Assembly (NCBI RefSeq): GCF_003324485.1
Contig: NZ_QODK01000002.1
Coordinates: 558,001-622,000 of the forward strand
Direction: 5' to 3'
DNA from: Cohaesibacter intestini
GTDB taxonomy: Bacteria; Pseudomonadota; Alphaproteobacteria; Rhizobiales; Cohaesibacteraceae
DNA length: 64,000 nt
A program made the position numbers and the translations under genes. Below are positions 23,403-42,657 of this stretch, piece after piece. Under the pieces are notes generated by a model. That model worked only from the letters and a program-made list of their open reading frames with translations, was not told the DNA's origin and did not search any database. Within the stretch, counting starts at the first letter, position 1. Each line of letters begins with the position of its first letter.

Positions 23403-25075
23403 TGACCGATCCACGCAAAAATTCCCGTGACATCTTCCCGCCGACCGGCACAGAAATCACTGCCAAAAGCTGGCTAACCGAAGCGCCGATGCGGATGCTG
23501 ATGAACAATCTGCATCCAGATGTCGCCGAAAATCCGCACGAACTGGTCGTCTATGGCGGCATTGGACGCGCAGCCCGCACATGGCAGGATTTTGATCGCA
23601 TCGTCGCCAGCCTCAAGGATCTTGAAGAAGACGAAACCCTTCTGGTCCAGTCCGGCAAACCCGTCGCCGTGGTTCGCACCCACAAGGATGCCCCGCGCGT
23701 GCTGATCGCCAATTCCAATCTGGTGCCCAACTGGGCCAACTGGGATCATTTCAACGAGCTCGATAAAAAGGGCCTGATGATGTATGGCCAGATGACCGCT
23801 GGCTCGTGGATCTATATCGGCACGCAGGGCATCGTTCAGGGCACTTACGAAACCTTTGCCGAAGCCGGTCGTCAGCATTATGACGGCGATCTGACCGGCA
23901 AATGGATCCTCACCGGCGGCCTTGGCGGCATGGGCGGCGCTCAGCCACTGGCCGCGGTCTTTGCAGGTGCTTGCTGTCTGGCGGTAGAATGCAACCCGGA
24001 CAGCATCGACTTCCGCTTGCGCACCAAATATCTCGACGAGAAAACCGACAGCCTTGATGAAGCGTTGGAGATGATCGAGCGCTGGACCAAGGCGGGCGAG
24101 GCCAAATCTGTTGGACTGCTGGGCAATGCCGCCGATATTTTCCCACAAATCCATCGCCGAGGCGTCCGCCCCGACATCGTCACCGATCAGACTTCGGCCC
24201 ATGACCCGATCAATGGCTATCTGCCACAGGGTTGGAGCGTCGCCGAATGGAAGGAAAAGGCCCAAACCGCCCCCAAGGAAGTCGAAAAAGCCGCCCGCGC
24301 CTCAATGAAGGTTCATGTCGAAGCCATGGTGGCCTTCCACAAGGATGGCGTCCCCACCGTCGATTATGGCAACAATATCCGCCAGATGGCGCTGGAAGAG
24401 GGCTTGGAAGACGCCTTCGCCTTCCCCGGCTTTGTGCCAGCCTATATCCGCCCGCTCTTCTGCAAGGGCATCGGCCCCTTCCGTTGGTGCGCCCTTTCCG
24501 GCGACCCGGAAGACATCCGCAAGACCGATCAGGCGATGAAAGAGCTGTTCCCGGAGAATAAGCATCTGCACAATTGGCTGGATATGGCGAGCGACCGCAT
24601 CGCCTTCCAAGGCTTGCCCGCCCGCATTTGCTGGATCGGCTTGGGGTATCGTCACCGTGCGGGCCTCAAATTCAACGAAATGGTCGCCTCGGGCGAGTTG
24701 AAAGCCCCAATTGTCATTGGCCGCGATCATCTCGACAGCGGCTCGGTCGCCAGCCCCAATCGCGAAACCGAAGCCATGCAGGATGGCTCGGATGCGGTCT
24801 CCGACTGGCCTTTGCTCAATGCCTTGGTCAACACCGCCAGCGGCGCGACTTGGGTCAGCCTCCATCATGGCGGCGGCGTCGGCATGGGGTTTTCGCAACA
24901 TTCGGGCGTGGTGATCGTTGCCGACGGCACCGACGATGCCGCCAAGCGGCTCGAACGGGTACTCTGGAATGATCCGGCCAGTGGTGTCTGGCGTCATGCG
25001 GACGCAGGCTATGACATCGCTCTTGACTGTGCCCGCGAACATGGTCTGAAATTGCCGGGCATTCTGGGCACCTGA
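23402..25075 (+). CDS. hutU: Urocanate hydratase
   Basis: 557 residues, NAD-dependent hydratase converting urocanate to imidazolone propionate. The NAD-binding glycine motif [14 protein letters not shown] is at about residue 172, followed by [12 protein letters not shown], the [13 protein letters not shown] segment, and [18 protein letters not shown] with the family's conserved residues; the tail [13 protein letters not shown] is also characteristic. ATG 23402 is preferred to two other in-frame ATGs (23390, 23399) because GGAGG ends 5 bp before it and it overlaps the hutG stop as ATGA. The length equals that of known urocanases. It is followed after 88 bp by a TRAP transporter. Confidence 0.96.
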
Positions 25076-25163
25076 CCAACAAACAAAGCGTTTCAAAAGA
25101 CATAACAAGAATAAGGGCAAAGCAAGCCCACCCACACATCCACCTTCCCAGAGGAGTTATCAA

Positions 25164-26249
25164 ATGGAAAGAAGAACCTTTTTGAAAGCAGGCGCCGCCG
25201 GTCTTGCCGCCGGAGCCCTCGCCACCCCGGCTATCGCCGAGGGTAAGATGCAGTGGAAAATGGTCACCGCCTGGCCAAAGAACCTGCCCGGCCCCGGCGT
25301 AGCCGCCCAAATGCTGGCCGATCGCATCACCGCCCTGTCCGGCGGACGCATCGAAGTCAAACTCTTTGCTGCTGGGGAACTGGTCCCCGGTCGCGGCGTG
25401 TTTGATGCCGTCAGCGAAGGCACCGCCGAGCTTTATCATGCCGTGCCTGCCTATTGGGGCTCCAAATCCAAAGGCATCCTGTTGTTCGGTTCCCAGCCTT
25501 TTGGCCTGCGTGCCGACGAACAATTTGGCTGGCTCTATCATGGCGGCGGTCAGGCGCTCTATGACGAAATGTATGGCCGCTTCAAAATCAAGCCATTCCT
25601 GTGTGGCAACTCCGGCCCGCAATGGGGTGGCTGGTTCCGCAACGAGATCAACTCTCCGGATGATCTCAAGGGCCTGAAATTCCGCACCACCGGTTTGGCT
25701 TCCGAGATGGCTTCCAAGCTCGGTATGGCCGCAGAAGCCATGTCCGGTCCGGCCATGTTCCAGGCCCTGCAGACCGGCGCTCTGGATGCGGGTGAATTTA
25801 TCGGCCCATGGACCGACAGCGCCCTTGGCTTCTTCCAGGTGGCGAAAAACTATTATTGGCCGGGGGTTGGTGAGCCTTCTTCGGCTGAAGAATGCGGCGT
25901 CAATGCAGATGTCTATGCCGGTCTGCCGGACGATCTGAAACAGGCCGTCAGCCTTGCTTGCGAGAGCCTCTACAATCCGGTTTGGACCGAATATACGACC
26001 AAACATGCGGCAGCCCTCAAGAACATGGTCGAAAAAGAAGGCGTTCAGGTCAAAATGTTCCCTGAAAGCGTCATCAAGGCCATGGGCAAGGCAGCAGGCG
26101 AAGTGATTGATGAACTGCGTCAGGATGACGACGAGCTGGTCAAGCGCATCACCGAAAGCTTCGTCGCCTACCGCGATAGCGTCGGTGGTTACATGACCTT
26201 TGCCGACAATGGCCAGATGAACGCCCGTGCGTCCATCATGGGCTATTGA
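25164..26249 (+). CDS. TRAP transporter solute-binding protein (TakP/DctP family), hut-linked
   Basis: 361 residues. The N-terminus MERRTFLKAGAAGLAAG is a twin-arginine signal, so the protein folds in the cytoplasm before export. The core shows TAWPKNLPGPGVAAQMLADRI, an opening motif like those of 2-oxo-acid binding TakP proteins, and the central KGLKFRTTGLASEMASKLG...FQALQTGALDAGEFIGPW, in which the Arg of KFR contacts the substrate carboxylate. The ligand is probably a small monocarboxylate. Its place just after hutU suggests urocanate, imidazolelactate or a similar histidine breakdown acid (inference). GAGGAG lies upstream of the start. A strong hairpin follows the gene at 26299-26324. Confidence 0.9.
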   Translation: MERRTFLKAGAAGLAAGALATPAIAEGKMQWKMVTAWPKNLPGPGVAAQMLADRITALSGGRIEVKLFAAGELVPGRGVFDAVSEGTAELYHAVPAYWGSKSKGILLFGSQPFGLRADEQFGWLYHGGGQALYDEMYGRFKIKPFLCGNSGPQWGGWFRNEINSPDDLKGLKFRTTGLASEMASKLGMAAEAMSGPAMFQALQTGALDAGEFIGPWTDSALGFFQVAKNYYWPGVGEPSSAEECGVNADVYAGLPDDLKQAVSLACESLYNPVWTEYTTKHAAALKNMVEKEGVQVKMFPESVIKAMGKAAGEVIDELRQDDDELVKRITESFVAYRDSVGGYMTFADNGQMNARASIMGY

Positions 26250-26298
26250 TCGGACAGTCCTCGACGCATTTACACCATCAATAATATGCCTATCTTTG

Positions 26299-26324
26299 GT
26301 CCGGCGCACAGACATGCGCCGGAC
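26299..26324 (+). other. Intercistronic hairpin after the TRAP binding-protein gene
   Basis: Perfect 10-bp stem GTCCGGCGCA / TGCGCCGGAC with a 6-base loop and no T run. Such hairpins often stabilise the upstream mRNA so binding protein is made in excess over membrane subunits. Confidence 0.65.
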
Positions 26325-26341
26325 TGAAGGAAAGGAACAGC

Positions 26342-26854
26342 ATGGATAAGGTCATAATCGGCCTTGAAGCCGTCAATCGCGCCGTTATGGCCTTTGTGCG
26401 CTGGCTGGCCGTTTTGATTGTGGCGGTTCAGTTCATCATCGTTCTCGGACGCTATGTCTTTGGCGTCAATTCCATCGCCGCTCAGGAAAGCGTGCTTTAT
26501 ATGCACGCCACCCTCTTCATGCTGGCCGGGGGCTATACCCTGTTGATTGATGGGCATGTGCGGGTTGATGTTTTTTATGCCAAATTCTCCCCCCGCATCC
26601 GCGCCGCGATCAATATACTCGGCCATCTATTTTTGCTGATGCCCTCTATGCTCGCCCTGATCTATTGGTCATGGCCATCGGTCGCCAATTCTTGGGCCAT
26701 TCTTGAAGGCCCCATTGCTGTTGGCGGCATCAAGGCGGTTTTCCTGATGAAATCCCTCATTCCCGCCTTTTGCTGCCTCATCATGCTGCAATCACTGGCC
26801 TGCCTTGTCCGCCATGTCAGAGAGCTGACCAAGGGGAGCATTGAGAATGGTTGA
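26342..26854 (+). CDS. TRAP transporter small membrane subunit (DctQ)
   Basis: 170 residues with four predicted transmembrane helices (AFVRWLAVLIVAVQFIIVLGRYVF, ESVLYMHATLFMLAGGYTLLID, INILGHLFLLMPSMLALIYWSW and VFLMKSLIPAFCCLIMLQSLACL). The phrase HVRVDVFYAKFSPR between helices two and three is typical of DctQ. It stabilises the large subunit for Na+-driven uptake. ATG 26342 lies just after AGGAAAGGA. Its stop overlaps the large-subunit start. Confidence 0.88.
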   Translation: MDKVIIGLEAVNRAVMAFVRWLAVLIVAVQFIIVLGRYVFGVNSIAAQESVLYMHATLFMLAGGYTLLIDGHVRVDVFYAKFSPRIRAAINILGHLFLLMPSMLALIYWSWPSVANSWAILEGPIAVGGIKAVFLMKSLIPAFCCLIMLQSLACLVRHVRELTKGSIENG

Positions 26855-28397
26855 CTATCTTGATCTCCTGATGTTTGGCACGCTGGTTGTGGCCATTCTG
26901 TCCGGCTTTCCTGTTGCCTTTGCCATTGCAGGCACCGCCGTCATCTTCGCCTATCTCGGCTGGTCCGTTGGTGCGATGGACATCAAGCTGCTTGGTGCAC
27001 TCGGCCAGCGGGCCTTCGGCCTTCTCTCCAATCAGGTGCTGATCGCCATTCCTGTCTTTATTCTGATGGGGGCAATCCTTGAGAAAAGTAGCGTCGCCGA
27101 ACGGTTGCTCGAAACCATGGGCAGCCTGTTTGGCTCCATGCGCGGGGGCCTTGGCATCTCTGTCGTGCTGGTCGGCGCCTTGCTTGCCGCTTCCACCGGC
27201 ATTGTCGGCGCGACCGTGGTGGCGATGGGCATGATCGCCCTGCCGACCATGCTGCGCACCGGCTATAACAAACCGCTCGCCGCAGGCATTGTCTGCACCT
27301 CGGGCACCTTGGGTCAGATCATCCCACCTTCGACCCTGCTGATCATCCTGTCCGACGTCATGTCAAATGCCTATCAGCAGGCCCAATATGAACAGGGCAA
27401 ATTCACCGTCGAAGCCCTGTCGGTGGGCCAATATTTTGCGGCAGCGCTTGTTCCCGGCCTGCTGCTGGTCATGCTTTATCTGATCTATATCGTCATTCGC
27501 GCCAATCTGCGGCCCGACGACATGCCTCCCGTCTCCACCAATGGCGAACGCCCCAGCTGGAACACGGTGTTTGAAGCCATCATCCCGCCGATCCTGCTGA
27601 TCTTTGCGGTGCTCGGGGCCATTCTGGGTGGGGTAGCCACCCCAACCGAAGCCGCATCCGTCGGGGCGGTTGGTGCCTTGCTGATGGCAGGCCAACGCTA
27701 TGGCATTTCCCGCAAATTGATCATTCTTGGCGCGGCGGCCTTCCTGCTGGCAGGCATTCTGTCGGGCTTTCATCCGGTCCGTCTGCAAAGGGACAATCTC
27801 GACGTCACCGATATCGCGCTAGGTGCAGCCAATATCATTCTGCTGGTCATCGGCATCATTGCTGCGGGTATTTGCCTGCGGCGGGCCATGCGTTCTGGCA
27901 TGATGCGCGAGGCCGCCACCTCGACCACCACCATGACGGCAATGATCTTTGCCACGATCCTTGCCGCCAGCTTCTTTTCGCTGGTCTTCATTGGTCTTGG
28001 CGGCGAAGAGCGTGTGGCCGAGATCCTCAAGCAAATGCCCGGCGGTCCGACCGGAGCCCTCTTCTTCACCATGCTTCTGCTGTTTGTCCTCGGCTTCTTC
28101 CTCGATTTTGTCGAAATTGCCGTGATCGTCCTGCCTCTGGTCACCCCGCAGCTGATCCTGATGGGACATGATCCGGTTTGGCTGGGCATTCTCATTGCCA
28201 TCAACCTGCAGACCAGCTTCCTGACCCCACCCTTCGGCTTTTCGCTGTTCTACTTACGCGGCGTGGCACCAGATGACGTGCGCACCATCGATATCTATCG
28301 GGGAGTCTTGCCCTTCATCGGCCTGCAGATCGTTGGCATTCTCCTGATCTGGTCGATGCCATGGATTGCCACCACATTGCCGTCCCTGATTTTCTGA
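26847..28397 (+). CDS. TRAP transporter large subunit (DctM), longer than usual
   Basis: 516 residues, the channel-forming subunit. N-terminal DctM features are LSGFPVAFAIAGTAVIFAY, PVFILMGAILEKSSVAERLLETMGSLFG and GIVGATVVAMGMIALPTM, then SGTLGQIIPPSTLLIILSD. In the middle (about residues 275-360) is an extra segment with two hydrophobic helices (LIILGAAAFLLAGILSGF and IILLVIGIIAAGICLRRAM), so the protein is about 85 residues longer than ordinary 430-residue DctM proteins. The C-terminal half (FFLDFVEIAVIVLPLVTPQL) is normal. ATG 26847 overlaps the DctQ stop. A terminator follows at 28442-28480. Confidence 0.9.
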   Translation: MVDYLDLLMFGTLVVAILSGFPVAFAIAGTAVIFAYLGWSVGAMDIKLLGALGQRAFGLLSNQVLIAIPVFILMGAILEKSSVAERLLETMGSLFGSMRGGLGISVVLVGALLAASTGIVGATVVAMGMIALPTMLRTGYNKPLAAGIVCTSGTLGQIIPPSTLLIILSDVMSNAYQQAQYEQGKFTVEALSVGQYFAAALVPGLLLVMLYLIYIVIRANLRPDDMPPVSTNGERPSWNTVFEAIIPPILLIFAVLGAILGGVATPTEAASVGAVGALLMAGQRYGISRKLIILGAAAFLLAGILSGFHPVRLQRDNLDVTDIALGAANIILLVIGIIAAGICLRRAMRSGMMREAATSTTTMTAMIFATILAASFFSLVFIGLGGEERVAEILKQMPGGPTGALFFTMLLLFVLGFFLDFVEIAVIVLPLVTPQLILMGHDPVWLGILIAINLQTSFLTPPFGFSLFYLRGVAPDDVRTIDIYRGVLPFIGLQIVGILLIWSMPWIATTLPSLIF

Positions 28398-28480: not shown

Positions 28481-28592
28481 GTGGTCAGGGCTTGGCTTCT
28501 GGCACGGCAACCTCCATCCCCCACAACGCGAACCCACACTTTTTGCCTGAATTCAAGCGAATTATTCAAACTGGCATAGAACTGTAGTCGGG

Positions 28593-28620
28593 TTGTCATA
28601 AAAACTGTGTAGGGTAATAA
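28593..28620 (+). promoter_or_regulatory. Promoter for the ABC transporter operon
   Basis: TTGTCA (28593-28598), 16-bp spacer and TAATAA (28615-28620). The first operator starts at the next base, so a bound repressor would cover the transcription start. Confidence 0.55.
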
Positions 28621-28636
28621 TTGCACACGCGTGCAA
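28621..28636. promoter_or_regulatory. Operator copy 1 (TTGCAC-N4-GTGCAA)
   Basis: TTGCACACGCGTGCAA, an inverted repeat with a 4-base spacer. Type of site bound by LacI-family proteins; the operon's own LacI protein (34922-35965) is the likely ligand. Confidence 0.65.
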
Positions 28637-28654
28637 GACCATAACAACAAAAAT

Positions 28655-28670
28655 TTGCACACGCGTGCAC
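28655..28670. promoter_or_regulatory. Operator copy 2 (TTGCAC-N4-GTGCAC)
   Basis: TTGCACACGCGTGCAC, 15 of 16 bases equal to the first copy and 34 bp further on (about three helical turns), which would let two dimers sit on the same face. Confidence 0.65.
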
Positions 28671-28729: not shown

Positions 28730-30085
28730 ATGCAGATCACCAAGACCCTCAAGGTTGCTGCCCTTACCACAGCTCTTGCCCTCTCCGGCACCGCAGCTTT
28801 CGCCAAGGATTTCACCATCAGCGTTTGGGCTGGTGGATCGAACCAGAATGACGCTTACCGCGCTGACGCCATTGAAATGGCCGCCGACATTCTGACCCGC
28901 GAAGCTGCGATCCGCGGTGAGGAAATCAATATCACCGTCGAGAAAAAGCTGTTCAATGACGGTTGGGACAATTTCAAGCAGGCCGTCACGCTGGCCGCTG
29001 AATCCAAAACCGCTCCACACATCATTGTCACCTCTCATGCGGACATTGCCCCATGGTCCCAATCCGGCCTGATCCGTCCGATCGAGGATTATGTCGATCT
29101 TGATGCGTGGCCGCTTAATCAGATCTATGACAATCTGCTCGAAATCACCTCCTATAATGGTCAGGTCTGGGGCATTCCGCAGGATGCCGAATCCCGTCCA
29201 TTCTTCTTCTGGATCCCGCATCTGAAAGCCATCGGCTACAGTGACGAACAGATCGAGGACCTGCCAGCCAAAGTCGAAGCGGGCGAATATACCCTCTATG
29301 ACATGCTCGAAGACGCCAAGAAAATTCAGGACAAGGGCCTCGTTGAAAAGGGCAAGGGCTTCTCCCCTCGCGTCTCCAACGGCCCGGATTACTGGCAATT
29401 CTATCAAAGCTTCGGCGGTGAAATGCTCGACAAGGAAAGCGGCAAGCTGATCTTTGACAAGCAGGCCATGACCGACATGTTCCAGTTTTTTGCCGATGCG
29501 GTGAAAATGGGCGTCACCTCTGCCACCCATCTGGGCGGCGACTGGGGCCAATGGTACAACGAAGTCGCCAACGGCAAGGCCGGCACCTGGCACGGTGGCA
29601 CCTGGCACTATGCCCGTTACACCGGCAAGGAAGGCCTTGATGATTTCTTCGGCAACATCCAGTTCTCCCTGATCCCGACTGGCAATGACAAGGGCCACGC
29701 CAACACCATCACCCATCCGCTGACCTATCTGATCTCCAGCACCGGCGATGATGAAGTGGCAGAAATCGCAGCCCAGCTGGTCGCCATCGCGTCCGAGCCA
29801 CGAATCAACACCCTGCATGCGATCAAGTCTGCCCATTTGGGCATTGGCCGCGAACAGTCCAGCATTGCGCTCTATGCCAACGACCGTTGGGCGTCTGAGG
29901 CCACCGACCGCCTGCTCGGCCATGCCAGCGCCATGCCAAACAACACCGATTTCGGTGCCTACTGGCAGATCATGTTCAAGGGCCTTGAGGCCGCTTGGAC
30001 GGGCCAGAAGTCGGTTGCGGATGCGGTCGCTGGTGTGGAAGCAGACATCAAGTCTTCCATGGCCGATGCCGTGATCATCAAATAA
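28730..30085 (+). CDS. ABC transporter solute-binding protein (CUT1-like)
   Basis: 451 residues, extracellular solute-binding protein family 1. The first 23 residues are a signal peptide (AALTTALALSGTAAFA, cleavage before KDFTISVWAGG). The mature protein has SVWAGGSNQNDAYRADAIEMA, the family's HADIAPWSQSGLIRPIEDYV region, and a run of aromatic residues (GGDWGQWYNEV, AGTWHGGTWHYARY) as in sugar binders. It delivers substrate to the permease pair encoded next. ATG 28730 has CGGAGG before it. It heads an operon with a tandem glycerophosphodiesterase and an inositol monophosphatase, so the ligand may be a glycerophosphodiester rather than a free sugar (inference). Confidence 0.9.
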   Translation: MQITKTLKVAALTTALALSGTAAFAKDFTISVWAGGSNQNDAYRADAIEMAADILTREAAIRGEEINITVEKKLFNDGWDNFKQAVTLAAESKTAPHIIVTSHADIAPWSQSGLIRPIEDYVDLDAWPLNQIYDNLLEITSYNGQVWGIPQDAESRPFFFWIPHLKAIGYSDEQIEDLPAKVEAGEYTLYDMLEDAKKIQDKGLVEKGKGFSPRVSNGPDYWQFYQSFGGEMLDKESGKLIFDKQAMTDMFQFFADAVKMGVTSATHLGGDWGQWYNEVANGKAGTWHGGTWHYARYTGKEGLDDFFGNIQFSLIPTGNDKGHANTITHPLTYLISSTGDDEVAEIAAQLVAIASEPRINTLHAIKSAHLGIGREQSSIALYANDRWASEATDRLLGHASAMPNNTDFGAYWQIMFKGLEAAWTGQKSVADAVAGVEADIKSSMADAVIIK

Positions 30086-30187
30086 GGCAGCACTGCCTCT
30101 CCAGAGGCGTCGGGTGCATCAAGTCGTGCCCGGCGTCCCCTTCTCGCTTTGACGCAACACTTCTGTCGCACCAAGGAAGCACGAGAC

Positions 30188-31501
30188 ATGCGCGCCCGTA
30201 CCAGCCTCCTGGGGCTTGGCTTCATGACGCCAGCCCTGATCATGGTCCTGACCTTTTTCCTTCTGCCGGTGATCTTGACCGCCGTTTTCGCCTTCACCAA
30301 CATGTCCACCGCTACGGGCATCAGCGGTGGCGACTATCTGCTCTCGCCCACCACGCTGAAGGCAATGAAAGAGGACGATCGTTTTGACCCGCCCTTGCTT
30401 GAGGCGCTTGGCAGCACCTCCTATCGAGTCGATGCCGCCGCGCTGGAAAAAGCCAAGAGCGAGAAATTGAAAGCCGCTTTCCTCAGGGAAATTGAAAAGG
30501 AACTGAAGGGCAAGCGGTTTCAGTCGCGACGCCAGATGGAACGCGCCCTGAAGAAGCTGAAATCCCGGCCACGCAGCATCCGCGCCCTGAAGCAAGCGAC
30601 GGAACCCTTTTCCCGCTCGATCCTCAATATCCGCTTTGACAAGGAAGGCGACCTTCTTGCCGCTCTGGATGAAATCGGCATTGAGGCCAGCGACAGCCAG
30701 AAGAAGGCCATTATCGCCCACAGCTATACCGGATGGAGCTGGACGAGCGACAATTTCACCACCTTGCTGCAGAAGCCCGGCACCTGGACCATTGCCTTCA
30801 ACACGTTGCTCTATGTCTCCTTGACCCTTTGCTTCAATGTTGGTTTCGGGTTGTTCCTTGCCATCACCACCTTCTACTTGCCCGCCGGACAGGCCGGGTT
30901 TTTCCGCGCTGTCTGGCTGCTGCCACGCATTTCGCCGCCGGTTCTCTATGTGTTGCTCTGGAAGTGGTTTACATGGGATGGCGGTTTCATCTCTACCATT
31001 ACAGGCTGGTTCGGCGCTCCCGCTTTCAACTTCATGCTTGGCTCAATCTCCAGTGCATGGACCGTGGTCATTCTGATCAACGGATTTGTTGGCGCATCTC
31101 TGGGCATGATCCTGTTTTCCTCGGCAATCAAGGCCATTCCCACCACCATGCTCTATGCCAGCGAAGTGGATGGGGCTTCCCGCTGGCAGCAAATCCGCCG
31201 GATCATCCTGCCACAATTGCGCTGGCCAATCCTCTTCATCACCTCCTACCAGACCCTCTCTTTGCTGACCTCGTTCGACTATATCCTGCTGTCGACTGAA
31301 GGCGGCCCGGGCGGTTCAACCACCCCTTGGGCCTTGGAGGCCTATTTCGTGGCGCTCAACAATTATGCGGGCAATCTGCAATATGGCTATGGCGCGGCGA
31401 TGGCCTTGGTGCTGGTCACGGTGGGCATCAGCCTGTCGCTCCTCTATCTGCGGCTGTTCAAGTTTGACGATCTCGTCAGCAAACCGCGCATTGAAAACTA
31501 G
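30188..31501 (+). CDS. ABC transporter permease (MalF/UgpA type) with a large N-terminal insertion
   Basis: 437 residues. TM1 is at about residues 8-35 (LGFMTPALIMVLTFFLLPVIL), and residues about 40-185 form a charged, helical, probably periplasmic segment rich in Lys and Glu (LEKAKSEKLKAAFLREIEKELKG, RQMERALKKLKSRPRSIRALK), not seen in ordinary UgpA. The remaining helices follow, with EAA loop SEVDGASRWQQIRRIILPQL that contacts the ATPase. The insertion is in the place of a large loop as in MalF, but unlike it in sequence. ATG 30188 is chosen with AAGGA about 11 bp upstream and TM1 directly after. Confidence 0.88.
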   Translation: MRARTSLLGLGFMTPALIMVLTFFLLPVILTAVFAFTNMSTATGISGGDYLLSPTTLKAMKEDDRFDPPLLEALGSTSYRVDAAALEKAKSEKLKAAFLREIEKELKGKRFQSRRQMERALKKLKSRPRSIRALKQATEPFSRSILNIRFDKEGDLLAALDEIGIEASDSQKKAIIAHSYTGWSWTSDNFTTLLQKPGTWTIAFNTLLYVSLTLCFNVGFGLFLAITTFYLPAGQAGFFRAVWLLPRISPPVLYVLLWKWFTWDGGFISTITGWFGAPAFNFMLGSISSAWTVVILINGFVGASLGMILFSSAIKAIPTTMLYASEVDGASRWQQIRRIILPQLRWPILFITSYQTLSLLTSFDYILLSTEGGPGGSTTPWALEAYFVALNNYAGNLQYGYGAAMALVLVTVGISLSLLYLRLFKFDDLVSKPRIEN

Positions 31502-31513
31502 GGAGCTGGCATC

Positions 31514-32350
31514 ATGTCTCATCAAACCACACGCAATTACCAGAGCTGGCCGGTCCTGTTGATCCTCGCCCTCTTCTCCTCACCTATCCTGATCATGTAT
31601 GTCTATCTCTTCATAGACACGATCTCCAACACCGAACCGGGGTCGCTGATCCCGTCCGAATTCACGCTGGAGCATTGGCGCTTCCTGTGGGAGACCGACA
31701 CCGGCACCACCAATATCTGGGTGGCCACGCGCAACACCCTGATCTTTGCCTCGACCAACACGGCGATCATTCTCAGCGTGTCCCTGACCGCGGGCTATGC
31801 GCTCTCCCGGCTCAACATGCCCTTTCGCGCCTTCTTTCTGGCAGGAGTTCTGACGCTCCACGCCTTTCCCACCATCACCTTGGTGATCGCCCTCTTCATC
31901 GTGCTGCAAATGGTCGGTCTCTATAACACCCTGATCGGGGTCATCCTGATCAAATCGGCCCTGATGCTGCCCTTTGGTATCTGGGTGATGAAGGGTTTCT
32001 ACGACACCGTGCCATGGGAAATCGAAATGGCGGGGGTTCAGGATGGCGCCCATCGCTTCACCGTCTGGCGGCGTTTGGTGCTGCCGCAAATCCAGCCCGG
32101 CCTGATTGCCCTTGGGGTCTTTGCCTTCCTTGATGGCTGGAGCGAATATATCCTGCCACAGATTTTCGCCCCCAGCGCCAATGTGCAGGTCCTGTCTGTC
32201 TATCTGGCCTCATTGATTGCCGATGACCAGAAATTCGACTTCAATCTCTTCAAATCGATCGGGCTCTTCTATGTCATCCCGGTCATCATTCTCTATCTCA
32301 TCTTCCAGAACAAACTGATGAATATCTACGGTGGAGGCACAAAAGGCTGA
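31514..32350 (+). CDS. ABC transporter permease (MalG/UgpE type)
   Basis: 278 residues, six predicted membrane helices. The first is LLILALFSSPILIMYVYLF; the EAA loop EIEMAGVQDGAHRFTVWRRLVLPQ is typical of the second CUT1 permease, as is TLVIALFIVLQMVGLYNTL. It pairs with the preceding permease. GGGAG is 8 bp upstream of the ATG. Its stop shares one base with the start of the ATPase gene (TGATG), so the two are translationally coupled. Confidence 0.92.
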   Translation: MSHQTTRNYQSWPVLLILALFSSPILIMYVYLFIDTISNTEPGSLIPSEFTLEHWRFLWETDTGTTNIWVATRNTLIFASTNTAIILSVSLTAGYALSRLNMPFRAFFLAGVLTLHAFPTITLVIALFIVLQMVGLYNTLIGVILIKSALMLPFGIWVMKGFYDTVPWEIEMAGVQDGAHRFTVWRRLVLPQIQPGLIALGVFAFLDGWSEYILPQIFAPSANVQVLSVYLASLIADDQKFDFNLFKSIGLFYVIPVIILYLIFQNKLMNIYGGGTKG

Positions 32351-33408
32351 TGCGTATCCTTCTCGACAAATTCTCCAAACGCTTTGGCGACGTCACCGTC
32401 ATCGACGAAATGGATCTTGAGATCAAAAGCGGCGAAATGATTGCCCTGCTTGGCCCGTCGGGGTGTGGCAAGTCCACCACTCTGTTCGCCATTTGCGGGA
32501 TTCATCAGGTCAATGCAGGGCGCATCCTGTTTGGCGACAAGGATGTCACGACCACCACCGCGCAAGCCCGCAATGTCGGCGTGGTCTTCCAGAATTATGC
32601 CCTTTATCCGCATATGAATGTGTTTGACAACATCGCCTTCCCGCTGACCGTGCGCAAGGATGACAAGGCAACCATCAAGCGCGAGGTCGAGGCCATTGCA
32701 GCGCTCGTTCATATCAGCGAATTGCTGGAGCGCAAACCGGCCCAATTGTCCGGTGGCCAGCAGCAGCGCGTGGCTCTGGCTCGCGCTTTGATCCGCAAGC
32801 CCGACGTCCTGTTGCTCGACGAGCCCCTTGCCAACCTTGACGCCAAGCTGCGCCTTGAAATGCGCTCGGAAATCCGCCGCATTCAGTTGGAGACCGGCAT
32901 TTCGGCCATTCTGGTGACCCATGATCAGGTCGAAGCCATGTCCATGTGCGACCGTATCGCCATCATGAATGATGGCAAAATCCTCCAGATTGCCACTCCC
33001 AATGACATGTATAACAACCCGGACACGGATTTTGTCGCTGGATTCCTTGGCAACCCACCGATTGCCTTTTTGGAAGGCCAAGCGGTCGATGGCCATTGCC
33101 AACTGGCCGACACCGACATCCGCCTGCCACTGCCGGAGCATCTGTCCGGCCTCAATGGACATCAGCCGATCCGCCTCGGGGTCCGGCCAGAGCTGGTCGG
33201 CAACAAAGACGGCACCGCGGTGTCTGGTACCATCAGTTTTGTGGAAACACAGGGCCGGGAAAATCTTTATGACATCACGCTTTCAAATGGCGCCATTATC
33301 CGCTCTATTCAGCATGTCCGCGACGATGTAAGGCTTGGTGACGCGGTCACATGGCCGATCGATTGCAGCAAGATGCTGGTCTTTGACCAGAACGGAACCC
33401 GACTCTAA
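32350..33408 (+). CDS. ABC transporter ATP-binding protein (UgpC/MalK/MsmK type)
   Basis: 352 residues. Walker A GPSGCGKST (35-43), Q-loop FQNYALYPHMNVFDNIAFPL, signature LSGGQQQRVALARAL, Walker B VLLLDEPLANLD and switch H in LVTHDQVEAMSM are intact. A C-terminal regulatory TOBE/MDR domain (from about residue 240: FLGNPPIAFLEGQ... RLGVRPELV) is present, as in MalK and UgpC. It powers the two permeases. Start and stop overlap the neighbours (TGATG and TAATG). Confidence 0.94.
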   Translation: MRILLDKFSKRFGDVTVIDEMDLEIKSGEMIALLGPSGCGKSTTLFAICGIHQVNAGRILFGDKDVTTTTAQARNVGVVFQNYALYPHMNVFDNIAFPLTVRKDDKATIKREVEAIAALVHISELLERKPAQLSGGQQQRVALARALIRKPDVLLLDEPLANLDAKLRLEMRSEIRRIQLETGISAILVTHDQVEAMSMCDRIAIMNDGKILQIATPNDMYNNPDTDFVAGFLGNPPIAFLEGQAVDGHCQLADTDIRLPLPEHLSGLNGHQPIRLGVRPELVGNKDGTAVSGTISFVETQGRENLYDITLSNGAIIRSIQHVRDDVRLGDAVTWPIDCSKMLVFDQNGTRL

Positions 33409-34925
33409 TGACATTTGCCAAAAAAATCGCTGCCCTAGGCTGGCCAAATAGCCGTTTCGATGGACCGGCCATCATCGGCCATCGCGGCGCGTGCCACCAC
33501 GCCACCGAGAACAGCTTGGATGGCTTCGTGCTTGCCAGCAAACTCGGGGCCGATATGTGGGAGTTGGATGTGCGCCTGACAGCCGACGGCACATGTGTCG
33601 TCAGCCATGATGATGACCTGTCCCGTGTCTTTGGGGTCTCGGCAAAGCTCTCCGAGTTGACCATCGCCCAATTGGAAGCACTGGAGGGAGTACATGTCCC
33701 CACCTTTGATGAGGTGATCACCCTGGCGATCCTGCTCGAAGCAGGTCTCTATATCGAGATCAAGGCAGATGGTGCTGGCCCGGCGGCTTTGGCTCTGTTG
33801 CAGCAAAGTGGCTTTACCTATGCGGCGCTCGGCTCTTTTGATCCCACCCATGTCGCACAACTCGCCGCTCTTGATTGTCCTTATCCCCTGTCGGTACTGG
33901 TGCGCATCGGCGACGATCCGTTCGAACAGGCGGCCAATGCCAGAGCGGATGCCATTCATCCCTGCTGGGAACGCGCCTCCGACCGACCAGACCAATTGCT
34001 GACCCCTGATCTGATGCAGCGGGCCAAAGACACGCAGCTTCCAATCATTCTCTGGCATGAAGAACGACCGGACGTCATCAAAGCCGTCATGGCGATGGAT
34101 GTGTTTGGCGTCTGCACCGACCGGCCCGAGTTGCTGGTGCCCTATCCCGGCTCGCCCTCCCGCCCAACACCTCTACCCAAAGGCCCTGAAGTGGTCTGCC
34201 ATCGTGGGGCCAACAAGCTCGCCCCGGAAAATACCCTGCCCGCTGCCTTGATGACCTTCGAGCAAGGCTTTGACTGGCTGGAACTCGATATACGCCAATC
34301 CTTGGATGGAGACCTGTTCGTCATTCATGACGAGACACTGGACCGCACCACCAATGGACGCGGCCCTGTCGCCAGCCACAGCGCCGAGCAATTGCGAGCC
34401 CTTGATGCTGGCAGTTGGTTTGATCCTCGTTTCACCGGCACCAAAATTCCGACCTTTGAAGAGATCATCGATCTGGCCAAGGCACATCAAAAAAATCTCT
34501 ATGTCGAGATCAAGCAGGCCGACCCGGCCAAGGTGCTGGATCTCATCAAGGCCAAGGATTTCATGGCCCATTGCTTCTTCTGGAGCTTCAACCGTGCTCT
34601 GAGCGATGAAGTCCGACGTCTGGCGCCCGATGCCCGGATCATGGCCCGCACGCTCGATTTCCCGACCATTAGCGAGGCCATCACCAGCGTCGGGGCCGAG
34701 ATCATCGAGGTCAATATGGCCGAGGAGCAAGTCGAGAAGAAAGCCACCAATATACACACCAGCGGAGCCAAGCTGATGCTATGTTACAACGGCTCGGACC
34801 GCACGGTGATGGAGCGCATGCTTGCCCTTGCCCCCGATCTGGTCAATCTGGATCAACTCAATCTCTGGAAAGAAGTCTGGTATCAGGCCCAGAGGCGACA
34901 TGCGAAAGAGACAGTGGCCCCATGA
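33408..34925 (+). CDS. Tandem-domain glycerophosphodiester phosphodiesterase
   Basis: 505 residues made of two GDPD domains in a row. Domain 1 has HRGACHHATENS (H25), ELDVR (E52, D54) and SHDDDLSR (H67); domain 2 has HRGANKLAPENT (H265), ELDIR (E292, D294) and IHDETLDRTTNGRG (H307). Both keep the acid-base histidines and metal ligands, but domain 1 lacks the DRTTNGRG ending of its third motif, so it may have different substrate choice or lower activity. GDPD enzymes split glycerophosphodiesters into an alcohol and glycerol 3-phosphate. There is no signal peptide: cleavage is cytoplasmic, after uptake. It overlaps the ATPase and LacI genes. Confidence 0.92.
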   Translation: MTFAKKIAALGWPNSRFDGPAIIGHRGACHHATENSLDGFVLASKLGADMWELDVRLTADGTCVVSHDDDLSRVFGVSAKLSELTIAQLEALEGVHVPTFDEVITLAILLEAGLYIEIKADGAGPAALALLQQSGFTYAALGSFDPTHVAQLAALDCPYPLSVLVRIGDDPFEQAANARADAIHPCWERASDRPDQLLTPDLMQRAKDTQLPIILWHEERPDVIKAVMAMDVFGVCTDRPELLVPYPGSPSRPTPLPKGPEVVCHRGANKLAPENTLPAALMTFEQGFDWLELDIRQSLDGDLFVIHDETLDRTTNGRGPVASHSAEQLRALDAGSWFDPRFTGTKIPTFEEIIDLAKAHQKNLYVEIKQADPAKVLDLIKAKDFMAHCFFWSFNRALSDEVRRLAPDARIMARTLDFPTISEAITSVGAEIIEVNMAEEQVEKKATNIHTSGAKLMLCYNGSDRTVMERMLALAPDLVNLDQLNLWKEVWYQAQRRHAKETVAP

Positions 34926-35965
34926 GCGATAGCAGCGACGAACAGGACAGCATCAAGCCGGTCACCTCAGTGGATGTTGCCAAACGGGCGGGCGTGTCCC
35001 GCTCGGCGGTGTCGCGCACCTTCACACCTGGCGCATCCGTCGCCCCAGCAACCCGCGAGCGGGTGCTCAAGGCGGCAGATGAATTGGGCTATCGCGTTAA
35101 TCAACTGGCCCGCAGCCTGACCAACAAGCGCTCCGATCTGGTCGGCATTGTCGCCGCCAATATGGACAATCCCTTCCGCGCCCAGCAGGTCGAGCATATT
35201 GCCCGTGCTTTGGTCAATGAGGGTTACCGCCCAATCCTGTTGCCCGCGGAGGCCCATGAAGATCCGCGCCGGGTCATTGGCATGCTGCTCGAATATAATG
35301 TGTCCGGTGTCATTGTCACCTCCGATACCCCGCCGCAAAGCATCTGTCAGGAATGCGTCTCCCTTGGCGTGCCGATGGTGCTGGTCAACAAGGCTGAGAT
35401 CGACGCCAAGGTGGACCGGGTTCTGCTCGACAACCACAAATCCGGTGCGCTGGCGGCAGACTTTCTGATCCGTCACGGCTGCCACCATCTCGCGGCCATA
35501 GGCTCGGAGAAGCCATCCTACTCTCTTTCCATCCGTCTGGAGACTTTTGAGAAAGCCGTCAGGGCATCCGGCACCCTCAGCAGTGGCCGCTACACAGCGG
35601 CCTTCCAGAATTATGAGGGTGGCTATGAGGCTGCCCGCAAATTGTTCGAGAGTGGCGTTGCGGTCGACGGCATTTTTTGTGTCACCGACTATATGGCTCT
35701 TGGTACCCTTGACTATATCCGCCTGCACACAGATAAACGCATCCCGGAAGACATCCAGCTGATCAGCTGCGACGACATCCTGCAAGCAGGCTGGGCGGGC
35801 TACAATCTCACCACCATCCGTCAGGACACAGAGGAAGTTGCCCGCCGGGTGGTGTCCACCCTGACCTTGCGTTTTGAACAACCGACAGCCCTGTCGCAGA
35901 CCAACATTGTCGATGTTTTCATCGTCGAGCGCGGCACAACAAAAACAAGTGGAACGACCGAATGA
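34922..35965 (+). CDS. LacI-family regulator of the ABC/GDPD operon
   Basis: 347 residues. The helix-turn-helix SVDVAKRAGVSRSAVSRTFTPGASV begins at about residue 18, then the hinge region, then a Type 1 periplasmic-binding-like effector domain (LVGIVAANMDNPFRAQQVEHI; ISCDDILQAGWAGYNLTTIRQD). A repressor of its own operon is the simplest model: two matching palindromes lie over the promoter at 28621-28670. ATG 34922 overlaps the GDPD stop (ATGA), and its own stop overlaps the IMPase start. Confidence 0.92.
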   Translation: MSDSSDEQDSIKPVTSVDVAKRAGVSRSAVSRTFTPGASVAPATRERVLKAADELGYRVNQLARSLTNKRSDLVGIVAANMDNPFRAQQVEHIARALVNEGYRPILLPAEAHEDPRRVIGMLLEYNVSGVIVTSDTPPQSICQECVSLGVPMVLVNKAEIDAKVDRVLLDNHKSGALAADFLIRHGCHHLAAIGSEKPSYSLSIRLETFEKAVRASGTLSSGRYTAAFQNYEGGYEAARKLFESGVAVDGIFCVTDYMALGTLDYIRLHTDKRIPEDIQLISCDDILQAGWAGYNLTTIRQDTEEVARRVVSTLTLRFEQPTALSQTNIVDVFIVERGTTKTSGTTE

Positions 35966-36756
35966 TCGAAGAGCGTTATGCGCTGCTGCAAACCCTTGCG
36001 AAAGAAGCTGGGCAACTGGCGCTGAACCATTTGCAGGCCCTGAAGGACAATCGCTTCCCCATTGAAGTCAAGGGGCCGCAGGATTTCGTCACCAAGGCGG
36101 ACCGCGATGTCGAAACCTTCATTCGCACCAAACTCAAAGAGGCCTTCCCCGAAGATGGCTTGCTGGGCGAAGAGCACGGTCTGGAAGCGGGCAGCAACGG
36201 CTTCACCTGGGTCATCGATCCGATTGATGGCACAGCAAACTATATCCGCAGCATCGATCAATGGGCCATTTCCATCGGCCTCGTATCGGCTGATCGCATG
36301 GAAGCAGGCGTCATATATGACCCTATGCGCGATGACCTCTACCGTGCAGCCGCCGCACAAGGCGCCTTTCTCAATGACAGTCCGCTGGCCAAAGCCAAGA
36401 CGGAAGCTCCAACCGACCCGATTTTGATTCTGGGTCGCTCCAAGCGCAAACCCTTTGACTCCTACCTCAAGACCTTGTCTTTCCTTGAGAGCAAAGGCAT
36501 CGAATATCGCCGCTTTGGCTCGGCCGCCATGGGGCTGGCGCTGGTCGCAACCGGACAGGTGGATGGTTATTTCGAGGCCGATCTCAATCCGTGGGATTGC
36601 ATGGCCGGCCTGTTGATCATCAAGGAGATGGGCGGAGTGATCGCCGCCGGGGAACAGGCCTTTGAAAGCCTCCAAAACCAGCCCATCTGTGCCGTTCATC
36701 CCTATATGAGAGACGAAATGACCGCGCTGCTGGCCGTGATTGCCGAGATCGAGTGA
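35962..36756 (+). CDS. Inositol monophosphatase family protein
   Basis: 264 residues with a complete IMPase metal site: GEEHG (E70/E71), WVIDPIDGTANYI (D86, D89) and LNPWDCMAG near residue 212. Enzymes of the family hydrolyse inositol 1-phosphate but some act on other phosphates (histidinol phosphate, fructose 1,6-bisphosphate, adenosine bisphosphates), so the substrate is not proved. In this operon it follows a transporter, a GDPD and a regulator, which makes a phosphate released from a glycerophosphodiester, such as inositol phosphate, a good candidate (inference). It begins inside the stop of the LacI gene (ATGA). Confidence 0.9.
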   Translation: MIEERYALLQTLAKEAGQLALNHLQALKDNRFPIEVKGPQDFVTKADRDVETFIRTKLKEAFPEDGLLGEEHGLEAGSNGFTWVIDPIDGTANYIRSIDQWAISIGLVSADRMEAGVIYDPMRDDLYRAAAAQGAFLNDSPLAKAKTEAPTDPILILGRSKRKPFDSYLKTLSFLESKGIEYRRFGSAAMGLALVATGQVDGYFEADLNPWDCMAGLLIIKEMGGVIAAGEQAFESLQNQPICAVHPYMRDEMTALLAVIAEIE

Positions 36757-36787: not shown

Positions 36788-37306
36788 ATGCAGATCAGCG
36801 ATGTCATAGGCCTTTTGCACCTTGTCGAGCGCCATGACATCACGCTCTGGATCGATGGTGGCTGGGGCATTGATGCCCTGCTCAAACGGCAAACCCGACC
36901 CCATGGGGATCTCGACATCGTTTTAGAAACCCGCACACTGCCCCGCCTCATCGCGCTTCTCTCTGAAGAGGGATTTCAAAGGCTGGAAACACCAGATTCC
37001 CGTGACTGGAATTTCGTCATGGGCGACCTAACGGGGCGCCGAGTGGATTTCCATGTCATCACGCTCGATGATCGGGGCAACGGTCTTTACGGTCCCGTCT
37101 CTGGCGGGCAAGCCTATCCCGCTTCCGCGCTAGAGGGCAAAGGACAAATTGGAAACCATCCGGTGCGCTGCATCTCGGCGGCCTATCAGGTGGCTTCGCA
37201 TGAGGCGGGCTATCCACTGCGCCCTCAGGATTATCAGGACATGCAGGCCTTGTGCACGGCCTTTGCCCTCCCCTTACCGGACCGCTTTTTGCCGCCTCAA
37301 GCGTGA
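36788..37306 (+). CDS. Nucleotidyltransferase of the lincosamide (LnuA/LinA)-like family
   Basis: 172 residues. The opening helix is followed by WIDGGWGIDALLKRQTRPHGDLDIVLE, in which GGWGID and the DLD pair (D41, D43) match the metal-binding motif of lincosamide and aminoglycoside nucleotidyltransferases; VDFHVITLDD is the third metal-carboxylate strand. The C-terminus has the shared HEAGYPLRPQDYQDMQAL. The substrate is unknown; family membership does not prove antibiotic resistance. It is 31 bp downstream of IMPase and may be in the same operon. The ATG at 36788 gives the normal N-terminus; the reading frame extends 16 codons upstream. It converges and overlaps with the LysR gene by 10 bp. 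Confidence 0.8.
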   Translation: MQISDVIGLLHLVERHDITLWIDGGWGIDALLKRQTRPHGDLDIVLETRTLPRLIALLSEEGFQRLETPDSRDWNFVMGDLTGRRVDFHVITLDDRGNGLYGPVSGGQAYPASALEGKGQIGNHPVRCISAAYQVASHEAGYPLRPQDYQDMQALCTAFALPLPDRFLPPQA

Positions 37307-38862: not shown

Positions 38863-39759
38863 TTATGGAGCGACCTTGTATCCAGCAGCAGCCATCACGC
38901 GCAGCAATTCCTTGTGGCCTTTGACCGCCATGTCATAAGGCGGATTGGCGACCGGATCCTGCTCGGCTTCCACCACGAACCAGCCTTGATACTGTTTCTC
39001 GGCCAGCAACTTGGTCAGCGCCTCAAAGTCCAGAGATCCATCGCCGGGCACAGTGAAGGCCCCCTTGACCACCGCATCAAGGAAGCTTTCCTTGCTGCGA
39101 TCAAGCCCATTGATCACATCCATCCGCACATCCTTGGTGTGGACATGGGTGATGCGGGCAAAGTGATTTTCCACCACGCGGAAAATGTCACCGCCAGCAA
39201 AGGCCATATGACCGGCATCAAACAGCAAAGGCACAGAGCTGTGTTTCATGAACAGATCCAGCTCAAGCTCGGTTTCCACTGCTGCGGCCATGTGGTGATG
39301 ATAGGAAATCGGCATGCCCTGCTTGCCGCACCAATCGGCAAAGTCGGACATTTTCCGACCATAGACTTCCATCTCGGCTTCGCTCAATTTTGGCTTCTCA
39401 GCCAATGGTGTGTCCTTCAAACCCTGCACCGAGCGGGCGGTTTCGCCATAGACAATGCAAGGGGCATTGGCTGCCTTGAAGAAGGCCATCTGTTCGGCGA
39501 TGCGGTCTTTCTCGACCTGGATATCGCCATCGAGCAGCAGACCGGAGAACCAGCCGCCACAGACCGAAATGCCGTAGCGATCAAGGATCGGCCCCAACTC
39601 TTCCATGTTCATCGGGAAACGACGCCCGGTTTCCATGCCCGTAAAACCGGCATCCGAGGCCTGACGCAGGCATTCCTCGAGGCTTACGTCATCGGACAAT
39701 TCTTCCAGATCATCATTCCACCATGCAATTGGGGCAATCCCCAGTTTGGCTTCCAACAT
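38863..39759 (-). CDS. iolE: Myo-inosose-2 dehydratase
   Basis: 298 residues, xylose-isomerase-like TIM barrel. IolE dehydrates 2-keto-myo-inositol to 3D-(3,5/4)-trihydroxycyclohexane-1,2-dione, the second step of inositol degradation. The N-terminus IAPIAWWNDDLEEL is the family signature; GFTGMETGRRFP, ISYHHHMAAAVE, LLFDAGHMAFAGG, ITHVHTKDVR and GWFVVEAEQDP hold metal ligands. Length is that of the family. It follows the DUF2090 gene, 53 bp away, on the same strand; iolB, iolC, iolD and iolG are not in this window. Confidence 0.94.
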   Translation of the reverse strand: MLEAKLGIAPIAWWNDDLEELSDDVSLEECLRQASDAGFTGMETGRRFPMNMEELGPILDRYGISVCGGWFSGLLLDGDIQVEKDRIAEQMAFFKAANAPCIVYGETARSVQGLKDTPLAEKPKLSEAEMEVYGRKMSDFADWCGKQGMPISYHHHMAAAVETELELDLFMKHSSVPLLFDAGHMAFAGGDIFRVVENHFARITHVHTKDVRMDVINGLDRSKESFLDAVVKGAFTVPGDGSLDFEALTKLLAEKQYQGWFVVEAEQDPVANPPYDMAVKGHKELLRVMAAAGYKVAP

Positions 39760-39812
39760 CGTCTCTACTCCCTGACGTGTTTCAATAAGACAAGCATTTG
39801 ACTTGGTTCAAT

Positions 39813-40703
39813 TTATACCCGCGCACGGGCCCGATCCCAGATGGAACAAAGGCGCTCATAGCGTGCTGCCATTTGCAGAACGGCCTCCCGGTCACTCATT
39901 TGACCGATCATCCAAGCCCGGGCAGCGTCGCCAAAGATCGAGCGACCGACAGCAAAGCCCTTGACCAGCGGAAAGGCAACAGCCACCTCGAAAGACGCCG
40001 CCAGGTCAGCTTCCGGCGCATCCAAACCCAGCACCACGATGCCGCGCACATTGGCGTCATTCTCTTCAATAGCACTCACCGCATTGGTCCATGCTGCAGC
40101 ATCAACCATCGGCTCAAGCTTCCACCAATCGGGATAGACACCAATCTCGTAAAAGCGGCGGATCAGCTTGGCGGTGGTGTCGGCATCGACCGGCCCGACC
40201 TTGGATGGGATCACTTCAAGCAGGAAGTCCAGCTTGTTGGCGCGGGCCGACAAAAAAAGCTGTTTGACTGTGGCTTCCTGTGTCGCCTGCATCTCGGCAT
40301 CATCATCAGGGTGGCAGAAACAGAGCACCTTGACCACATGCTCCCCGGCCCATTCCGACAGACCAGCCCCATCGGGCCCCACTTGCGGTTCCAGTTCCAA
40401 CGGCCGCGATCCCGGCCATTCGCATGGACGACCGATCCACAACCCGGAGCCCGTTGCCTTGTCGAGCGCATCCATGCCAATCCGCGCGTCACACAGAATG
40501 CCAAATCCATGCGCCCCGTGCTGCACCTTCAGGGCCGCTTCCAGACAAAGCTCCTTGAACCGCCCGCCTTTTTCAAGGCTATAGCCTTCCATTTCTTCGA
40601 GCTGCATGCGGTGATCGAAGGCGAAAGTCCGCAGATCGCTCCAATCCACCTCACGTTCGGCAGGACAGCGCAGTTGCTCTGGCAGTTCCGAATTGATGCT
40701 CAT
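39813..40703 (-). CDS. Free-standing DUF2090 (IolJ-type aldolase) protein
   Basis: 296 residues. In many proteobacteria the same domain is the C-terminal half of bifunctional IolC, where it is assigned as 6-phospho-5-dehydro-2-deoxy-gluconate aldolase activity; here it is a separate gene. Features are the N-terminal LRTFAFDHRMQLEEM (an FDHR motif usual for this domain), FGILCDARIG, LLEVIPSK, WWKLEPM and FAVGRSIFG, a TIM-barrel pattern with candidate Schiff-base lysine in the EVIPSK strand. It is cotranscribed with iolE and divergent from mmsA. The kinase half (IolC proper) is not seen here and would be encoded elsewhere. Confidence 0.85.
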   Translation of the reverse strand: MSINSELPEQLRCPAEREVDWSDLRTFAFDHRMQLEEMEGYSLEKGGRFKELCLEAALKVQHGAHGFGILCDARIGMDALDKATGSGLWIGRPCEWPGSRPLELEPQVGPDGAGLSEWAGEHVVKVLCFCHPDDDAEMQATQEATVKQLFLSARANKLDFLLEVIPSKVGPVDADTTAKLIRRFYEIGVYPDWWKLEPMVDAAAWTNAVSAIEENDANVRGIVVLGLDAPEADLAASFEVAVAFPLVKGFAVGRSIFGDAARAWMIGQMSDREAVLQMAARYERLCSIWDRARARV

Positions 40704-41131
40704 GTCAGTTCCTTTGCAAATGGTCTGAGCGCAGCCCTCTCGCCGACAGCTCCAACGGTTTGGTGCGCCTTCCTCAATCAGCCATCTCCCCCGGAAATTT
40801 TGTCCCCCTCAGGGTGGGCATCGCCTCGGCCAAAGCACACAAAGTCCCGATAAGTAAATGCTTGTAGACAGGATGGGTCAAGCCAAAATGAAATATATTC
40901 ACCGATCAATTTAATTTATGAAATAAATATTTCATTTTTGACTTGGCTCAATTTCATCGAGCCTTGACGCGCCTATCGCTGGTGCATGTTGCAAAAGGGA
41001 GGGGACCCCTAAGGAGGATGAACCGTGCGGCCTATTGCGCCCACTGCCACGCCATCCCCCGGGCCAGACCCGAACGCCCCCTGCATCAAAGTGCTTTTGG
41101 CAGCGTCGCTGTCTGACTGGAGGATCCTAGG
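40704..41131. other. Divergent regulatory region of the iol genes
   Basis: About 430 bp, AT-rich in the middle, between the divergent DUF2090 and mmsA genes. It holds the TGAAATA-AA-TATTTCA palindrome, a weaker TGAAATATATTCA copy 30 bp to its left, and TTGACTTGGCTCAATTT, which has a near twin at 39800-39816 before iolE. No gene. Confidence 0.6.
40889..40934. promoter_or_regulatory. Candidate IolR/RpiR operators
   Basis: TGAAATATATTCA (40889-40901) and the perfect inverted repeat TGAAATA-AA-TATTTCA (40919-40934), 30 bp apart, in the divergent iol promoter region. An RpiR regulator is encoded next to mmsA. Confidence 0.5.
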
Positions 41132-42646: not shown

Positions 42647-42657
42647 TCAATCCATCG

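Follow-up and report, generated by a model that had tools for sequence, protein, structure and literature searches.

A conserved seven-gene operon of Cohaesibacter intestini coupling a CUT1 importer to a tandem phosphodiesterase, probably for uptake of polyol or sugar phosphodiesters

Gene content and layout of the operon

The window analysed here consists of 64,000 nucleotides (nt) of Cohaesibacter intestini DNA, and its positions serve as coordinates throughout. It contains seven co-directional genes on the + strand (28730–36756), which encode a solute-binding protein, two permeases, an ATPase, a tandem glycerophosphodiester phosphodiesterase (GDPD), a LacI-family regulator, and a phosphatase of the inositol monophosphatase (IMPase) family. 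A preliminary description of this DNA had proposed a seven-gene operon with these limits, and profile matches and junctions read from the sequence bear this out. The operon stands out beyond chance because its gene order recurs in other genera.

The transport genes encode the components of a CUT1 ATP-binding cassette importer, i.e. an SBP_bac_1 binding protein, two BPD_transp_1 permeases, and an ATPase with a TOBE/MalK domain. As assessed by profile and sequence comparison, the binding protein (28730–30085, + strand) is MalE-like and not UgpB-like, and its translation suggests a typical N-terminal signal sequence. In an alignment of 13 binding proteins (six A-type and seven B-type, as defined below), the invariant residues include R44, H103, D152, E154, R156, R214, and D220. 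The structure model of this protein was poor, with a mean predicted local distance difference test (pLDDT) score of 65.9, a predicted template modelling (pTM) score of 0.56, and residues 103–156 below 50, and it was not used. Profiles identify permease 1 (30188–31501, + strand) as MalF-like, permease 2 (31514–32350, + strand) as MalG-like, and the product of 32350–33408 (+ strand) as the CUT1 ATPase with its TOBE domain. Permease 1 has 437 amino acids (aa), versus 305 aa in its Thermus homologue. By visual inspection, it has a long insert past the first membrane span (approximately residues 45–180), which is partly very basic and seemingly missing from the 305-aa Thermus permease. The position of this insert is presumably that of the P2 loop in MalF.

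Stop and start codons overlap at every junction downstream of permease 2. There is a 1-nt overlap between permease 2 and ATPase genes (at 32350), another between ATPase and GDPD genes (at 33408), which is the overlap joining the transporter to the GDPD noted earlier, and an ATGA overlap at both the GDPD/LacI (34922–34925) and LacI/IMPase (35962–35965) junctions. The binding protein and permease 1 genes are separated by ∼100 nt, taking ATG 30188 as the start, and the two permease genes are 12 nt apart, in both cases without overlap. Profiles also identify the LacI-family regulator (34922–35965, + strand). The IMPase-family protein (35962–36756, + strand) matches PF00459 with 199.2 bits and contains IDPIDGT, which we take to be the metal-binding motif of this family. 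Seven NCBIfam models match it, each with a score under its cut-off, and an activity on inositol phosphate is putative. Because neither the GDPD nor the IMPase-family protein has a signal peptide discernible by eye, both are taken to be cytoplasmic.

Conservation of the operon across genomes

Within the order, 33 of 397 genomes have a match to the binding protein. We define 27 of these as A-type (E-value <1e-150) and six as B-type (28–32% identity). Searches of the class returned three of 385 genomes, including the one under study, and a search of plasmid records returned 146 of 72,556 at an E-value of 1e-5, among which 130 show 60–80% identity and 121 are from Rhizobium. The GDPD has matches in 11 of 61 genomes, again including its own, some of them over one half only. 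The operon occurs in root-nodule rhizobia and in marine Alphaproteobacteria.

We compared 37 A-type loci, comprising those of the 27 genomes of the order, one genome of the class (G100), Shimia, and eight of the 146 plasmid records. Because several of these loci are close kin, they do not represent 37 independent cases. The order and strand of the binding protein, permease, permease, ATPase, and GDPD genes are kept in all 37. The LacI gene is linked in 35, whereas the remaining two loci reach a contig border before its position. The IMPase gene is linked in 27 of the 33 loci that could be assessed, the other four (L025, L028, L083, and L090) being interrupted by contig ends. In L097, the LacI and IMPase genes have been relocated jointly to a divergent position, and in G034 and G694, two genomes of one genus, an IMPase gene is divergent from a B-type system.

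This arrangement bears on the possibility that a plain oligosaccharide is taken up while the GDPD and phosphatase serve something else. The binding protein and the permeases do resemble maltose-type proteins, and MalEFGK-type maltose importers share with the operon the families of all four transport components, including a MalF-like permease 1. Unlike these importers, the operon encodes a GDPD and a phosphatase alongside. The fixed place of the GDPD gene behind the ATPase gene at every locus, the absence of a glycosidase from the profile matches of the seven genes, and the presence of a Pho-box-like element (see below) all argue against this explanation, which we regard as highly improbable.

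Tandem and single-domain forms of the GDPD

The GDPD (33408–34925, + strand) is a tandem protein, as assessed by profile, tree, residues, and an AlphaFold2 model, with domain 1 encoded by ∼33408–34163 and domain 2 by ∼34164–34922. It contains two PF03009 stretches (188.4 bits together), and both halves have kept HR..EN..ExD..HD..ExK, which we assume to be the catalytic set of GDPDs. The AlphaFold2 model is confident (mean pLDDT 94.0, pTM 0.89).

By the lengths of the alignments and the spacing to the LacI gene, the GDPD is tandem in 21 of the 37 loci, single-domain in 15, and cut off in one. In a tree of GDPD domains and relatives, the single-domain proteins cluster with domain 1 (support 1.000). 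Domain 2 sequences are outside this clade, near the GDPDs of two B-type loci (L099 and G913), and their unity is unsupported in the tree. These placements indicate that domain 1 is the constant part, present at every locus, and that domain 2 is an optional addition. In the tandem GDPD of L025 (5640–7100), domain 1 is without Arg26, Glu34, and Asp54 and domain 2 is intact; domain 1 of this protein is possibly non-catalytic. A few other loci show Glu-to-Asp changes in the catalytic set. In addition, seven single-domain loci (L037, L043, L044, L046, L094, L095, and L096) carry an extra, oppositely oriented GDPD gene close to the IMPase gene. The four extra GDPDs included in the tree cluster with the Thermus GDPD (support 0.998), and WT and DxK residues are common to both.

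Operators and a Pho-box-like element in the promoter region

Upstream of the binding protein gene, an exact 14-mer search found two copies of a LacI-type operator, the near-palindrome TGCACACGCGTGCA (28622–28635 and 28656–28669). They are the only exact copies in the whole 4.79 Mb assembly, in which 19 matches with ≤2 mismatches were found, copies 1 and 2 being counted on both strands. In 36 of the 37 A-type loci, an operator with ≤3 mismatches lies upstream of the operon, no more than 300 bp from the presumed start of the binding protein gene; in 24, it has ≤1 mismatch. Further upstream lies a Pho-box-like element, CTGTAGTCGGGTTGTCAT (28582–28599, + strand), which matches 12 of the 14 positions of CTGTMATNNNNCTGTCAT, the consensus as given in an excerpt of PMC3131613. 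A TAATAA between this element and the operator (28615–28620, + strand), read from the sequence, is a possible −10 element.

A Pho-box score of ≥10/14 at 21–24 bp upstream of the operator is found in 17 of 36 loci, L097 being left out because it has no operator. The scores of the 36 loci add up to 304 versus a shuffle mean of 202 (sd 6.9; 0/2000 shuffles as high), and those of 17 chosen representatives to 146 versus 96.5 (sd 4.7; 0/5000 shuffles as high), although these are base-composition shuffles that ignore kinship and a spacing picked after inspection, which tempers the argument for phosphate control. With ≤3 mismatches, the Pho pattern has 595 matches in the genome versus 204 for a reversed control. 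Together, the LacI-type operator and the Pho-box-like element suggest that the substrate and phosphate starvation both control the operon, probably through LacI and PhoB.

Comparison with Ugp and acc systems

Ugp is an importer of glycerol 3-phosphate and glycerophosphodiesters, encoded in the order ugpBAECQ with the GDPD gene last. UgpBAEC–UgpQ and the operon have in common a CUT1 importer, a cytoplasmic GDPD, and possibly a control by phosphate starvation, whereas only the latter has its own LacI and IMPase genes and a tandem GDPD. We therefore considered a second Ugp-like importer, which would bring in glycerophosphocholine, -ethanolamine, or -glycerol as a phosphate source. Its GDPD would yield glycerol 3-phosphate, and the IMPase-family enzyme would act on this product or be incidental. 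The gene order is that of ugpBAECQ, with the GDPD gene after the other transport genes, the best match of the ATPase is UgpC (358.9 bits, below the cut-off of 432), and there is a Pho-box-like element. Moreover, proteins named UgpB, UgpC, and GlpQ-2 in a marine Phaeobacter (MED193), which are possible homologues, are reported to be PhoB-dependent and have neighbouring locus tags, the GDPD among them (GlpQ-2) being called putatively extracellular (PMC10132767). On the other hand, the binding protein has no match to the UgpB model (NF008211) at an E-value of 1e-3, a phosphatase would be unneeded if the product were glycerol 3-phosphate, and the same genome already has a separate ugpBAEC set (C1:369–374 kb; 365.2 bits to the UgpB model, cut-off 411, and 516.3 bits to UgpC, over cut-off). 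The unmatched UgpB model, the missed UgpC cut-off, and this separate set led us to reject membership of Ugp proper, and a second importer of Ugp type seems rather unlikely. The ugpBAEC locus itself (L146 3385–9087, corresponding to C1:369–375 kb of the window genome, G000) has a divergent LacI gene with an operator-like TGCACACGTGTTCA in between, apparently another LacI/operator combination of this kind at a phosphoester transporter.

A second known system combines the same activities. The acc-type operon of the Ti plasmid, in which we assigned the names AccF and AccG from gene order, encodes a DeoR regulator, a binding protein, two ATPases, two permeases, a GDPD, and an IMPase. Like the operon studied here, it thus groups an importer, a GDPD-family phosphodiesterase, an IMPase-family phosphatase, and a local regulator. 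Unlike it, acc has DeoR instead of LacI, a GDPD of a different clade, and, instead of a single ATPase, a pair of which one carries an oligopeptide-type annotation. Membership of acc was rejected on these differences in transporter class and regulator. In the GDPD tree, AccF (L145 6172–7774) clusters with the B-type GDPDs of G034 and G694 (L103 and L104; 41–43%, support 0.898), a kinship that may point to where the opine enzymes came from.

By analogy with the uptake of agrocinopine, the operon could serve a sugar-sugar or sugar-polyol phosphodiester, from which the GDPD would leave a sugar phosphate acting as the LacI effector and dephosphorylated by the IMPase-family enzyme. The pairing of GDPD and IMPase with an importer matches acc, in which AccF yields arabinose-2-phosphate, the AccR effector, according to an excerpt of PMC4526662. 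Over 219 aa, AccG and the IMPase of the window share 40.6% identity, the binding protein is of a sugar type, and AccF has the B-type relatives mentioned above. This explanation is weakened by the position of AccF outside the domain 1 clade and by the two ATPases of acc, including one of oligopeptide type, and it leaves unexplained the linkage to inositol genes in Thermus described below. We consider it unlikely.

Evidence bearing on an inositol-containing substrate

An inositol-containing substrate had originally been proposed because iolE, an IolJ-type aldolase gene, and mmsA were thought to lie within 3 kb of the operon. Positions 38863–43679 hold a partial iol cluster comprising iolE, an aldolase-like gene of the DUF2090 family, mmsA, and a gene that by eye encodes an RpiR-like regulator. 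Only iolE is as close as described, starting 2.1 kb past the IMPase gene, whereas the DUF2090 gene is at 3.1 kb and mmsA at 4.4 kb. The supposed IolJ-type aldolase (39813–40703) is actually a DUF2090 protein (PF09863, 360.8 bits), which has its best NCBIfam match, below cut-off, to the C-terminal half of fusions between IolC and an aldolase. A nucleotidyltransferase gene and a LysR-like gene (the latter recognized by eye) separate the operon from iolE and the DUF2090 gene, which have the opposite orientation and thus do not belong to it. The argument from these neighbours was rejected because they were found beside none of the other 36 A-type loci, in stretches of varying length; the inositol neighbours in the window are a local accident.

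Co-occurrence with iolE is positive across the order and null within the genus of C. intestini, and is therefore treated as weak. Across the order, iolE is carried by 21 of the 27 A-type genomes and five of the six B-type genomes, versus 126 of 364 others (Fisher 1.3e-5 for A-type carriers versus others), figures that are confounded by kinship. On another contig, the window genome has iolD (above its cut-off), iolC (marginally above), an iolB-like gene (below), and a gene for a class II aldolase, and may therefore be able to break down inositol. In G034, where a B-type transporter comes with a GDPD and the divergent IMPase, iolG-like, iolD, and iolE genes are 13–18 kb from the binding protein gene.

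Conserved linkage to iol genes was found for a distant relative in Thermus and not for the A-type loci. In two strains of T. thermophilus, genes for a binding protein, two permeases, an ATPase, and a GDPD are downstream of inositol-catabolic genes on one strand, in the order iolD, a TIM-barrel gene in the place of iolE, iolC, a class II aldolase gene, iolG, the gene for an iolB-type (5-deoxy-glucuronate) isomerase, and deoR; mmsA upstream of them was seen in one strain. Like the window operon, this locus has a homologous transporter followed by a GDPD gene. Unlike it, it has inositol-catabolic genes and DeoR attached, a shorter permease 1, and no LacI or IMPase within the annotated stretch. 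Outside Alphaproteobacteria, the closest relative of the window binding protein is that of Thermus (30%, 1e-63; among the best 60 of 146 matches), and outside Thermus, the closest relatives of the Thermus protein are rhizobial A-type proteins (∼31%, 3e-62; among the best 40 of 368 matches). This linkage makes an inositol phosphodiester the best single guess.

Proposed function

Uptake of a phosphodiester and its intracellular cleavage, the core of the preliminary description, are well supported by the gene set, the Pho-box-like element, and the parallel with acc, whereas the neighbour-based reason for inositol has fallen. The operon very probably takes up and cleaves a polyol or sugar phosphodiester, and the chance that this substrate contains inositol is close to even. 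Glycerophosphoinositol itself is a fair but tentative candidate, supported by the Thermus relative and not by the neighbours in the window. It is likewise possible, if somewhat doubtful, that the operon is dedicated to importing and catabolizing glycerophosphoinositol or another inositol phosphodiester of this kind, is under the joint control of PhoB and LacI, and has a cousin in Thermus. What the sequences show is the gene set, its conservation, the catalytic residues, the operators, the Pho-like elements, and the linkage to inositol genes in Thermus; binding by PhoB and LacI, the location in the cytoplasm, the direction of cleavage, and the substrate are inferred.

A number of observations weigh against an inositol-containing substrate and the joint control proposed below. 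Five solved structures related to the binding protein were found, 4g68 (two sequences), 5ysb, 2fnc, and 6dts; 2fnc and 6dts are named maltose-binding, i.e. belong to a sugar-binding class, and 4g68 and 5ysb are presumably of that class too. The IMPase was not found at an E-value of 1e-20 in 6 of the 33 assessable loci (L019, L048, L084, L085, L086, and L089). iolE, the DUF2090 gene, and mmsA are beside the operon in one of 37 loci, that of the window, the stretches compared being of varying length. No iolE was found at an E-value of 1e-70 in five operon carriers that are ≥96% complete (G003, G011, G013, G014, and G513), nor in a sixth that is 67% complete (G045), and within the genus it is present in four of eight carriers versus five of ten non-carriers. 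The two Thermus strains are of one species and thus one independent case, and their binding protein, being only 30% identical, may have another ligand. No match to the Thermus iol enzymes was found in the stretches retrieved around eight other B-type loci (G075, G622, G629, G693, G694, G730, G913, and S. terangae). As for phosphate control, 19 of 36 loci, including all six named Rhizobiaceae loci, have no Pho element at the 21–24 bp spacing, five of these six having instead a 9–11/14 match just 3′ of the operator, and the Pho site in the window is one of 47 in the genome with ≤2 mismatches.

We propose that the operon would scavenge a polyol or sugar phosphodiester in intact form, with an inositol-containing one, such as glycerophosphoinositol, as the likeliest candidate. 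During phosphate starvation, PhoB would bind the Pho box and activate transcription, while LacI bound to its operators would prevent initiation as long as no internal effector is present. The CUT1 importer, with its binding protein, would take up the whole diester, and the GDPD, presumably in the cytoplasm, would cut it into an alcohol and a phosphomonoester, with the direction of cleavage still conjectural. The IMPase-family enzyme would then free the phosphate, and glycerol and inositol would enter central pathways encoded elsewhere.

This probable phosphodiester-uptake operon is a variant on Ugp- and acc-like systems, and no bacterial glycerophosphoinositol importer was found, by title and abstract opening, among the matches listed in searches of open-licence papers. 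If the proposal is true, legume symbionts and marine bacteria, which encounter phospholipid debris from plants, fungi, and algae, have a conserved route other than Ugp, under double control, by which organic phosphodiesters are used intact. With glycerophosphoinositol or a related inositol phosphodiester as the substrate, bacteria would draw phosphate from the headgroup left when eukaryotic phosphatidylinositol is deacylated. The operon yields a short list of ligands for testing, and its iol-linked relative in Thermus makes the inositol idea testable.

Genes flanking the operon

A nucleotidyltransferase gene (36788–37306), whose product resembles aminoglycoside-2″-adenylyltransferases (PF10706, 99.4 bits), starts 31 nt past the IMPase gene. 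No relative of it was found in a set of neighbourhoods retrieved for homologous loci. Directly upstream of the operon (23390–28397), a urocanase-like gene is followed by genes for a TRAP-type transporter, as named by eye from the translations.

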